DNA of 64,000 nt from an uncultured Succinivibrionaceae bacterium (GTDB lineage Bacteria; Pseudomonadota; Gammaproteobacteria; Enterobacterales; Succinivibrionaceae): assembly GCA_944393045.1 (NCBI GenBank), contig CALXYT010000007.1, positions 1 through 64,000 on the forward strand, given 5' to 3'. Position numbers and translations under genes: made by a program. Shown here piece after piece: positions 2,315 to 60,464 of this stretch. Below the pieces are notes generated by a model. It made no database searches. It was not told the DNA's origin and saw only the letters and a program-made list of their open reading frames with translations. Numbering within the stretch: position 1 is the first letter of the stretch; every line of letters begins with the position of its first letter.

Positions 2315-3322
2315 ATGGTTGTGATGTCACTCAATGCGCAGAGTGAGCATTTACAAAATGTTTCACGTACTTTTGCTTTAACAATACCTGTTTTACCAAA
2401 GCAACTTATGGATTGGGTTGGTAATGCATATTTGTTATGTAGAATAGCTGATACTATTGAAGATGATCCATCTTTATCTTCAGAATTAAAAGCTAAGCAT
2501 TTAGATAAATTTATTCAAACGCTTACTGATGCTACTTTAATTGACTCATGGTCGGATGAGATTTTCAATTTACTTAAAAGTACAGCTAAACCTAAAGAAG
2601 CTAAATTATTAAAAGATATTCCTGCTGTATTAGGTAGATATTATTCATACCCAGAGGATGTAAGAGCTATTTTGCGTCATGGTGTTGAGATTATGTGTAA
2701 AGGTATGGCTCAATTTAAGAGATGGGATAATATTTCATCTATCGATGATGTTGATCAATACTGTTATAGTGTAGCAGGGGTAGTAGGAGAAATACTTGTT
2801 CATTTATTTGCTGTGTATTCCCCAAAAATCAAAACTAAGCTTGAAAAACTATTACCTTTAGCAGTTTCTTTTGGGGAAGGGTTGCAATTAACTAATATTC
2901 TTAAAGATGTTTGGGATGATGCGGCAAGAGGTGTTAAGTGGTTACCTTTAGATTATTCTTCAGAAGAAGGTAAGATACAAACAACTAGAAACTATGTTAG
3001 TATCGCCTATGGTCATGTATTGCAAGCATGTGAGTTTATTTATATGCTACCACGTACTGAACCAAGAATTAGATCTTTCTGTTTATTAGCTAATGCTATG
3101 GCTGTATTAACGCTTAAAAATATTTATAAGAACCCTTTATTTAAGAGTGCTTGTGAGATAAAAATCACCAGGAAGGACGTTAAGAAAGTAATTGCAGAAA
3201 CAAACGTTTTATTGTACACTAATTGGGGTTTAAAGTTGCTTTTTGCACATTATGCTGAAAAGGATATGCAGTATAAAATGCGAGATGCAATGGTATTACG
3301 TAATAAGGTTAGTTATTGGTAA
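2315..3322 (+). CDS. Squalene/phytoene synthase family protein, squalene-synthase type
   Basis: This is a 335-residue head-to-head prenyltransferase. The first aspartate-rich motif is RIADTIEDDP near residue 48, and the second is NILKDVWDDAARG near residue 199. YCYSVAGVVGE lies between them. These match squalene synthase (two farnesyl diphosphates to squalene) better than phytoene synthase. The ATG at 2315 is followed in frame by another at 2324, and the ribosome site favours neither. DsbA follows after 15 bases, so the two may be cotranscribed. No hopanoid, carotenoid or squalene-cyclase gene is in the window, so the end product is unknown. Confidence 0.8.
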   Translation: MVVMSLNAQSEHLQNVSRTFALTIPVLPKQLMDWVGNAYLLCRIADTIEDDPSLSSELKAKHLDKFIQTLTDATLIDSWSDEIFNLLKSTAKPKEAKLLKDIPAVLGRYYSYPEDVRAILRHGVEIMCKGMAQFKRWDNISSIDDVDQYCYSVAGVVGEILVHLFAVYSPKIKTKLEKLLPLAVSFGEGLQLTNILKDVWDDAARGVKWLPLDYSSEEGKIQTTRNYVSIAYGHVLQACEFIYMLPRTEPRIRSFCLLANAMAVLTLKNIYKNPLFKSACEIKITRKDVKKVIAETNVLLYTNWGLKLLFAHYAEKDMQYKMRDAMVLRNKVSYW

Positions 3323-4075: not shown

Positions 4076-4104
4076 AAAAAGGAAAGGTAACTTTCCTTTT
4101 TTTT
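4076..4104 (+). terminator. Rho-independent terminator after dsbA
   Basis: GGAAAG (4081-4086) and CTTTCC (4091-4096) enclose a GTAA loop. Five A residues precede the stem and eight T residues follow it. This is a strong terminator. Confidence 0.9.
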
Positions 4105-25312: not shown

Positions 25313-28195
25313 ATGCAAGTTAAACCAATTATCTTAGTAGATGGGAGCAACTTTTTATTTAGAGCATATCATAGCGTAATTAAGAGTCAGCTTACTAATA
25401 AAAGAAATGAACCTACTGGCGCTACTAAAATCTATATTAATATGCTCAATAGCTTAAAAAAGGAATATAAAGATTCCGTTATTGCTATCGTCTTTGATGC
25501 TCACGCTAAAACTTTTAGACATGAAAAGTACCCTGAGTATAAAGCAATTCGTAAGCCTATGGATATGGAATTAAGGGTACAGATCCCAATTATTAAAGGC
25601 ATTATTAGAGCTATGGGCTTTATGATATTTGAAATAGAAGGTGTTGAGGCTGATGATGTTTTAGGATCTTATGCTCAAGCTGCTAAGAACGAGGGGCGAG
25701 ATTTAATAATTGCAACTGGTGATAAAGACTTATGTGTACTTATTGATAATCATATTTCTATTATCGATACTATGAAGAAAAAGGTTTTAGATAGGGATTA
25801 TGTTATTGAAAAATTTGGGGTAGAACCAAAGTTAATCAGTGATTATTTAGCTCTTTGTGGTGATAGCGTAGATAATATCCCTGGAATGCGTGGCATAGGT
25901 CAGAAAACTGCTCAACTTTTAATTAATCGTTATGGTACTATTGATAATATAAAAGCAAACTTAGACGATGTAGCTAATATTAATTTTAGAAAATCTAAAT
26001 CCTTTAAAGAAGATTTCTTAGCGCAAGAAGAAGATATAGCACTATATCGATTCTTAACCAAGATTAAAACTGATGTGCCACTACCTGTTGCGCTTGATGA
26101 ACTAAAATTTAATGAACCTGATCATAAGACCCTTTATGATTATTACACTAGATTAGACTTTGAGGGATTAAAACAAAAAGAAGAGGCTATGTTAGCCAAA
26201 TTAGCTCTGCCATTAGAGAGTCAAGGATCAAAAGCTGATTTTTCTTCTTTTAATATGTGGAGTGATTACTTAAAAGAAAATGCTAGTGTTAATAATGAGG
26301 CTAGTGAGGAGATACCTTTAAAGAGAGTTACTAATAAAGAATTCTGTGAAATAAAGGAAAACACCTTGCGAAATTGTCAGATTAATGAACTTAATACTGT
26401 GCAATTATACCATTATGAAACCAGTGAAGAGCTAGCTAATCTTAAAGATTTACTACTTAAAGAAGAAAGTTATGCGATAAATATTTTAGTTACAAAAGAT
26501 CATTATTTAGAAAGTAAAATAGTTGGCATAAGCTTCTTAGGTGTAAATGCTGCAGGCTATGTAGATTTTTTAGATCCGTTATTTTTAGTATTAGATAAAG
26601 AGCAAGCAAAAGCAAAGTTAAGTATTTTAGAGCCTCTTTTTTTAAGCGAAAAAGTAAAATTTATTTATGACTTAAAGGCTATTATGCATACTTTAGCTAA
26701 CTATGGCCTTAGTATAAATCCTCCATATGAAGATATTACTTTACTTACTCATATCAATAATTCCGATGATTCATTAGATGTAAAATTTTTAGCGCAAAAA
26801 TATTTAGATAGAGCTATTAAGACTGAGGTAGATATATTAGGTAAAGGTGCTAAAGCTTTAGGTTATGAAGAGTTACCAGTAGATAAGGTAATAGTTTATC
26901 AGAGTGAGTATGTAACTACGCTTTATAATCTAGCAAAAACTTTACTGGCTAAAGTAAAGGCTACACCATGTGCTTATGAGATTTATCAAAATGAAGAGCT
27001 TCCATTAGTAAAAGTTTTATGTGCTATGGAACGAGTTGGGGTAAAGATTAATAACCAAACTCTTGAAGAGCAAAGTAGTAAATTACATGAGCAATTAGAT
27101 GCTATTGTGCTAGATATTTATAATAAAGCAGGTGAGAAGTTTAATATTAATTCTCCAATGCAAATTGCTGAACTTTTATATACCAAGCTTCAATTGCCAG
27201 TTGTTACCAAAACTGCCAAAGGTGAACCTTCAACTTCAGAAGAAGCTTTACAAGAATTAGTAACGTACTCTCCTTTACCTCAAAAGATATTAGAGTATCG
27301 TGAATTATCTAAGTTACTTAATACCTATGTAGATAAACTAGGTAATTATATTAATGAATTTACAGGGCGATTACATGCTAAGTTTAATCAATGTGGAACA
27401 AACACTGGTAGATTATCTTCATCTGAGCCAAATCTACAAAATATTCCAATTAGAACAGCAGAAGGCAAAGCTGTGCGGAAAGCTTTTGATGCTCGCAAGG
27501 GGTATAAAATAGTAGCTGCCGATTATTCACAAATAGAACTGCGAATCATGGCGCATATCGCTCATGTGACTAATATGTTTAAAGCATTTAAAGAAAGGCT
27601 TGATATTCATAAAAATACAGCCTCTGAGATGTTTAATATACCACTTGATAAAGTTGATGCTAGCGAGCGTAGAAAAGCCAAAGCTATAAATTTTGGTTTA
27701 ATTTATGGTATGAGTAATCATGGTTTAGCAAAGCAAATTGGGGTAAGTAGAGATACTGCTAAGGATTATATTCAGGCATATTTTGCTAAGTATCCCGAGG
27801 TAAATATTTACATGAAAGAAGTAGTAGAGTTTGCGAAAGAACATAGTTATGTAACTACTTTTAATGGTAAGAGAATAGATTTCTCAGGGTTTAAATATGA
27901 AAAAGGACCTAAAAAAGTAGCATTACAAAGAGCTGCTATAAACGCACCTATTCAAGGAACGGCTGCGCAAATAATAAAATTAGCCATGATAAAAATCTAT
28001 GACTATATAAAAGATAAACCAGAGGAAGCGCAATTACTTATGCAAGTACACGATGAATTAGTGTTTGAGATTCGTGAAGATAAGGTTTTAGAATATAAGA
28101 AAATCATTAATGATATTATGGTAGGGGTAGTTAATTTGAGCGTTCCTTTAGAGGTTGAGGTTGGTGTTGGTGATAATTGGAGTGAGGCACATTAA
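25313..28195 (+). CDS. polA: DNA polymerase I, proofreading domain apparently inactive
   Basis: This 960-residue repair and Okazaki-fragment polymerase has a complete 5' nuclease domain (LVDGSNFLFRAYHS at the start, EGVEADDVLG, GDKDL, GDSVDNIPG). The polymerase domain is also complete: DYSQIELRIMAH motif A, RRKAKAINFGLIYG motif B, and QVHDELVFE motif C. The middle 3'-5' exonuclease domain has lost its metal ligands. Aligned to E. coli, D355 is Asn390, E357 is Leu392, D424 is Ile457 and D501 is Tyr533; only the tyrosine (Tyr529) remains. It would copy DNA without editing, like Taq polymerase. The stop overlaps the start of a secreted protein gene. Confidence 0.95.
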   Translation: MQVKPIILVDGSNFLFRAYHSVIKSQLTNKRNEPTGATKIYINMLNSLKKEYKDSVIAIVFDAHAKTFRHEKYPEYKAIRKPMDMELRVQIPIIKGIIRAMGFMIFEIEGVEADDVLGSYAQAAKNEGRDLIIATGDKDLCVLIDNHISIIDTMKKKVLDRDYVIEKFGVEPKLISDYLALCGDSVDNIPGMRGIGQKTAQLLINRYGTIDNIKANLDDVANINFRKSKSFKEDFLAQEEDIALYRFLTKIKTDVPLPVALDELKFNEPDHKTLYDYYTRLDFEGLKQKEEAMLAKLALPLESQGSKADFSSFNMWSDYLKENASVNNEASEEIPLKRVTNKEFCEIKENTLRNCQINELNTVQLYHYETSEELANLKDLLLKEESYAINILVTKDHYLESKIVGISFLGVNAAGYVDFLDPLFLVLDKEQAKAKLSILEPLFLSEKVKFIYDLKAIMHTLANYGLSINPPYEDITLLTHINNSDDSLDVKFLAQKYLDRAIKTEVDILGKGAKALGYEELPVDKVIVYQSEYVTTLYNLAKTLLAKVKATPCAYEIYQNEELPLVKVLCAMERVGVKINNQTLEEQSSKLHEQLDAIVLDIYNKAGEKFNINSPMQIAELLYTKLQLPVVTKTAKGEPSTSEEALQELVTYSPLPQKILEYRELSKLLNTYVDKLGNYINEFTGRLHAKFNQCGTNTGRLSSSEPNLQNIPIRTAEGKAVRKAFDARKGYKIVAADYSQIELRIMAHIAHVTNMFKAFKERLDIHKNTASEMFNIPLDKVDASERRKAKAINFGLIYGMSNHGLAKQIGVSRDTAKDYIQAYFAKYPEVNIYMKEVVEFAKEHSYVTTFNGKRIDFSGFKYEKGPKKVALQRAAINAPIQGTAAQIIKLAMIKIYDYIKDKPEEAQLLMQVHDELVFEIREDKVLEYKKIINDIMVGVVNLSVPLEVEVGVGDNWSEAH

Positions 28196-56758: not shown

Positions 56759-56891
56759 AAGCGTCTATTATTTCACCAAAGACTTTAAAAATTTGTTAAG
56801 TCGCAAAGCTTTGGTTTTGTTTTTTTTCATTGTGTGGTGTTGGGCGCTAACAGTGGTTCAATGGCGACACAATATTTTGTTGAGGTTTTCC

Positions 56892-60167: not shown

Positions 60168-60277
60168 AAATCTTCCTATCTTGTCAATTAAGAGATTGAT
60201 GCTAAGTAAAGATTAGCTTAATAAGAGTATTGATGCAACATTTACTATCAAGAAAAAAGTAATTATAATACCTGCGT

Positions 60278-60429
60278 TTTAAGGTGCCATAGGCTTAATA
60301 AGGAAACTAGTGAGATTCTAGTACTGACGCGCAGCGGTATAGTAGGTCTTTCTACTTGTGATAACACTAAATGATAAATTTGGGAAGTTAAGTAGATATC
60401 AAGCTCTAAGTCCGAAGACTTGCCTTAAA
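60278..60429 (+). promoter_or_regulatory. Cobalamin riboswitch upstream of btuB
   Basis: The B12 box AAGTCCGAAGACTTGCCT is at 60408-60425. Upstream, AAGGTGCC, then GGAAACTAGTGAGATTCT and CTGACGCGCAGCGGT follow the order of the adenosylcobalamin riboswitch core. The closing helix pairs TTTAAGG (60278-60284) with CCTTAAA (60423-60429). The 3' side of that helix touches AAAGGTG, a ribosome site for a TTG at 60441. Ligand binding would hide it and lower BtuB when B12 is plentiful. Confidence 0.88.
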
Positions 60430-60464
60430 GGTGAATAACATTGATCTCGCGAATTGGATTAACA

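Follow-up and report, generated by a model that had tools for sequence, protein, structure and literature searches.

Loss of the proofreading-site carboxylates from DNA polymerase I in an uncultured Succinivibrionaceae bacterium and, genus by genus, across its family

The stretch of DNA analysed here (64,000 nucleotides, hereafter the window) carries polA, the gene for DNA polymerase I (Pol I), on the forward strand at 25313..28195, stop codon included. The open reading frame encodes 960 aa and was assigned with Pfam and NCBIfam, passing the Pol I equivalog models over its full length (NF004397, 968.7 bits against a cut-off of 720; TIGR00593, 847.1 against 600). At the N-terminus lies a FEN-like 5′-3′ exonuclease/flap endonuclease domain (residues 6-271; 25328..26125, + strand; PF02739 and PF01367), whilst a polymerase domain occupies residues 582-958 (27056..28186, + strand; PF00476, E 6.5e-146). 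Alignment to the E. coli enzyme found 9/9 catalytic acids present in the 5′ nuclease and 6/6 catalytic residues (D705, R754, K758, F762, D882 and E883) intact in the polymerase, in keeping with a sequence-only reading of this DNA that had called both domains normal. The same residues are also intact in relatives wherever they could be read. Between these domains is a degenerate 3′-5′ exonuclease domain (residues 360-552, bounds transferred from E. coli 326-520; 26390..26968, + strand). The mid-protein Pfam match is to PF22619 ('DNA polymerase I, ribonuclease H-like domain'; residues 393-516); the Pfam search returned no match of the window Pol I to PF01612 (3′-5′ exonuclease), a family to which E. 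coli PolA scores 148.6 bits. Elsewhere in the window we observed an L31 ribosomal protein leader of the Gammaproteobacteria type (56831-56886, + strand, 35.4 bits) and a cobalamin riboswitch (60265-60441, + strand) directly upstream of a 621-aa ORF at 60441.

To read the exonuclease site, Pol I sequences of 76 genomes were aligned with PolA of E. coli K-12 MG1655, which gives the reference numbering. In the window Pol I, D355 is replaced by N390 (codon aat at 26480), E357 by L392 (tta, 26486), D424 by I457 (att, 26681-26683) and D501 by Y533 (tat, 26909), whereas Y497 is retained as Y529. Hence the DEDDy set D355, E357, D424, Y497, D501 reads N, L, I, Y, Y and the residues of an active exonuclease are absent. 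The sequence-only reading had named these four substitutions; alignment and codons agree with it, and its coordinates were exact to the base. In motif 1, N390-I-L392 replaces D355-T-E357 (26480..26488, + strand). This motif aligns free of gaps between 'FDTETDSLDNISANLVGLSF' and 'INILVTKDHYLESKIVGISF', on the conserved VG(L/I)SF strand, which rules out an alignment slip. In motif 2, Asp-Leu-Lys-Ala-I457 (26672..26683, + strand; 'YDLK' at about 26666-26677) replaces N420-L-K422-Y-D424, the Asp at the N420 position being the codon that precedes L-K. In motif 3, Y529-Q-S-E532-Y533 replaces Y497-A-A-E500-D501 (26897..26911, + strand). Moreover, the positions of E. coli L361, F473 and R455, which we take to be single-strand pocket residues of that enzyme, are also substituted (D, E and S, respectively). 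Chance or sequencing error was considered as the source of the loss and rejected, since in related genera the site is likewise lost but to other residues, and the reading frame is uninterrupted.

Residues 300-960 were modelled with AlphaFold on the basis of 61 relatives, giving a mean pLDDT of 88.9 and values above 90 in most of the exonuclease domain. The model places N390 and L392 in a strand (386-393), I457 in a helix (454-462) and Y529 and Y533 in another helix (523-549), as in the DEDDy fold. Its best PDB match is E. coli Klenow (1kfs), with Z 46.2 across 587 residues that include the exonuclease domain; after the Klenow chains, the closest solved structures are human Pol theta, M. smegmatis Pol1, Bst and Taq. 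The RNase H-like exonuclease fold of the Klenow type is therefore predicted to be kept in the window Pol I. Modelling had been proposed as a check by the sequence-only reading, and it found the four positions where they were expected. Just two acids lie close by: an Asp that aligns with N420 and opens the second-motif helix, and E532, the counterpart of E. coli E500. By sequence and secondary structure we saw no Asp or Glu in the window exonuclease domain able to rebuild the two-metal site, though the two acids aligned to N420 and E500 may in principle retain some metal binding.

Residues, predicted fold, the match to PF22619 and not PF01612, and the evolution of the domain (below) all support the earlier suggestion that this Pol I is proofreading-dead, and we regard it as very probably so, like Bst and Taq. 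Put more fully, it is highly likely that this is a working Pol I, with 5′ nuclease and polymerase, whose 3′-5′ exonuclease domain persists as a structural scaffold and nothing more. The large fragment of Bst Pol I likewise keeps a vestigial exonuclease domain as a scaffold, and the model of the window Pol I aligns with Bst chains at Z scores of 37-39. However, the loss in Bst is independent and occurred in another phylum, and the window enzyme is nearer to E. coli Klenow in both sequence and fold score. Taq Pol I, a non-editing enzyme with three domains, is the top match of the full-length window Pol I sequence, but in the sequence search its alignment to the window Pol I is confined to regions outside the exonuclease domain. 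E. coli Pol I is the ortholog and the best structural match, with the same fold throughout the model; it has all four exonuclease carboxylates, whereas the window Pol I has none of them.

We then asked how the site is distributed in the family. All 57 Succinivibrionaceae genomes returned by our search were sampled, of which 54 have a readable polA. The exonuclease site is kept in 26/54 and lost in 28/54. All four carboxylates are retained in 26 genomes, one in 9 and none in 19; no genome retains two or three. Moreover, the state of the site is uniform within each sampled genus, being kept in g4, g7, g9, g12 and g14 and lost in g1 (the genus of the window), g2, g3, g5, g6, g8, g10, g11 and g13. 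The replacement residues differ from genus to genus, for example N-L-I-Y in the window, Y-L-L-H in Ruminobacter and Q-Q-A-N in one g13 genome, as is expected of decay. In one genome (G005, locus L041) polA is split into two frames (2830-3006 and near 4100). Gene fission was rejected here as the breaks fall at lysine-rich (A-run) codons, and they are probably assembly frameshifts.

We also searched 395 genomes of the order with a profile built from intact exonuclease domains. Nearly every genome outside the family matches it, at roughly 1e-50 to 1e-96. Clear exceptions were G056 (family f22), the four f19/g32 genomes, genomes of very small size (0.2-1.0 Mb) and two that are incomplete. The match is absent or weak in G056 and in the f19/g32 genomes G053, G097, G116 and G133; the two whose residues were read, G053 and G056, are without the site, and these groups are candidates for additional losses. 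Matches near 1e-55 in family f8 are in two pieces, probably owing to an insertion. The expectation of the sequence-only reading, that the site is retained in the majority of Pol I of the class, is thus true of the order-wide sample but fails in the bacterium's own family, where 28/54 have lost it.

For a polA core tree, the exonuclease domain was excluded and only the 5′ nuclease and polymerase domains were used. In this tree g2, g3 and g13 fall among the keeping genera, whilst g1, g5, g8, g10 and g11 are grouped apart, and four state changes are required within the family. Forcing all genomes without the site into one clade lowers the log-likelihood by 57.8 units (AU p = 0.029), and the nesting recurs in a MutS tree. 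These gene trees imply at least four separate losses in Succinivibrionaceae. On the window's side of the family there may have been one or two, with low support. In the scenario we propose, the site would have been lost in the common ancestor of Ruminobacter and its relatives, the clade to which the window belongs, with at least three further independent losses in other genera. The intermixing of genomes with and without the site could also follow from a single loss in the family ancestor and later regain or horizontal replacement in those that now keep it, and the AU test rejects a single clade only at p = 0.029. Against this, the main groups agree between the polA core and MutS trees, giving no sign of polA transfer, and the regain of four acids together with the pocket residues is implausible; we consider such a history quite improbable.

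Repeated loss is accompanied by a change in how the domain evolves. The median ratio of exonuclease to polymerase dN is 2.4-4.0 in genera that lost the site versus 1.6-1.8 in those that keep it, and the 5′ nuclease shows no comparable rate shift in the former. In close pairs, dN/dS of the lost exonuclease domains is 0.03-0.35, although these ratios are rough because synonymous sites are near saturation in several pairs. Values this low indicate that the domain is still constrained as part of the protein. Judged by these rates, the dead exonuclease domains evolve faster yet under purifying selection, as a retained scaffold.

The second motif shows a recurrent change. An Asp occupies the E. coli N420 position in 20/28 family genomes that lost the site and in 0/26 that keep it. 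Among 80 named sequences from outside the family, it is found in 52/71 exonuclease-dead and 0/9 intact enzymes, with K422 kept in all; these outsiders are related to one another, so the counts do not represent independent events. N420-to-D recurs in exonuclease-dead Pol I across phyla and was never found in the intact ones examined. Such recurrence is what might be seen if proofreading persisted with its acids moved elsewhere, for instance to the N420 or E500 position. However, N to D at 420 is conservative and lies at a helix start in the model, 8/28 of the family genomes without the site have no D there, motif 1 is entirely without an acid and the pocket residues are gone. Persistence of proofreading by this route is extremely improbable. 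It is plausible that a working site needs a neutral N beside the metals, and that in a dead site D would cap the helix better. Taken together, we think it probable that this one gammaproteobacterial family has undergone at least four complete losses, with no half-lost intermediates sampled and with a recurrent N420-to-D change stabilising the dead scaffold.

Other fidelity genes were considered alongside Pol I. The window genome has a DnaQ above NCBI cut-offs with readable DEDDh residues (LDTET, HNAKFD, SHGALLD), carries MutS and MutL, and encodes a UmuC-like polymerase that scores slightly below its cut-off. In our reading, the window Pol I would fill in Okazaki and repair gaps but leave the primer end unedited, its errors would presumably be left to MutS/MutL, and bulk replication would still be edited by Pol III epsilon (DnaQ). 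Given Pol III epsilon and MutS/MutL, the effect on fidelity genome-wide that might be expected of the Pol I loss is less likely. Across the family, none of the other fidelity genes tested distinguishes genomes that lost the site from those that keep it. Loss of mismatch repair as a companion trait was rejected, as nearly all genomes of both kinds have a full MutL model and a MutS match. The C-terminal MutL domain (MutL_C, PF08676) had no match in 10/10 g2 genomes or the window genome, although the N-terminal part of MutL is strong, and MutL frames in g2 are long, most of them 885-1125 aa. Since full MutL and MutS matches are found nearly everywhere, this domain has probably only diverged.

Two further observations concern nucleases and polymerases elsewhere in the genome. 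At least one PF01612 match was found in 55/57 family genomes, the profile having no match anywhere in the window genome, which thus has no recognisable RNase D, nor in one genome of the Ruminobacter group (G032, g11). A second, phage-like family A polymerase of 646 aa is encoded on contig C96 of the window genome (L159:2062-4002, + strand). It matches PF00476 only, has an apparently intact exonuclease motif (LDVES ... YNRRDVE) and is probably prophage-borne.

A survey of more than 3000 species published in 2026 found DEDDy substitutions in about half of Pol I orthologs (PMC12926913). The loss was largely phylum-specific (Firmicutes, Tenericutes and Actinobacteria), and exonuclease-dead Pol I was enriched in anaerobes. 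Its authors suggest that Pol I proofreading is often dispensable and raise a role in error-prone repair, with a translesion-type role argued from the H. pylori and B. subtilis enzymes. The exonuclease-inactive PolA1 described there has the same three-domain layout as the window Pol I, which on sequence grounds fits this known kind, having a substituted DEDDy site with intact polymerase and 5′ nuclease. Dispensability of Pol I proofreading in these gut anaerobes would be the likely cause of the losses. Selection could have acted in the other direction, favouring rather than tolerating a non-editing Pol I that extends mismatched or lesion ends and so supports translesion synthesis, as PMC12926913 proposes for exonuclease-dead enzymes. 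The repetition of complete losses within one family, the UmuC-like polymerase of the window genome and the continued purifying selection on the dead domain are all consistent with this. Yet Y-family genes occur in most genomes that lost the site and in most that keep it, several of the former have none detected, and faster evolution of the exonuclease domain is a prediction of relaxed constraint. We therefore view adaptive loss as rather unlikely and favour dispensability.

In summary, the single protein is ordinary and the family-level pattern is the interesting part. Our literature search found no publication on Pol I proofreading in Succinivibrionaceae. The loss surveyed in PMC12926913 is largely at the level of phyla, whereas in Succinivibrionaceae it forms a mosaic between genera of one family. 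New here are this genus-by-genus mosaic in a gammaproteobacterial family, its all-or-none pattern and the recurrence of N420-to-D. These data caution that proofreading cannot be assigned to a Pol I from class membership, and they bear on why about half of bacteria keep Pol I proofreading and half discard it. Between sister genera that differ in the site, mutation spectra, repair genes and lifestyle can be compared with little phylogenetic confounding. If the pattern is true, such matched sister genera would offer a test of the natural role of Pol I proofreading.
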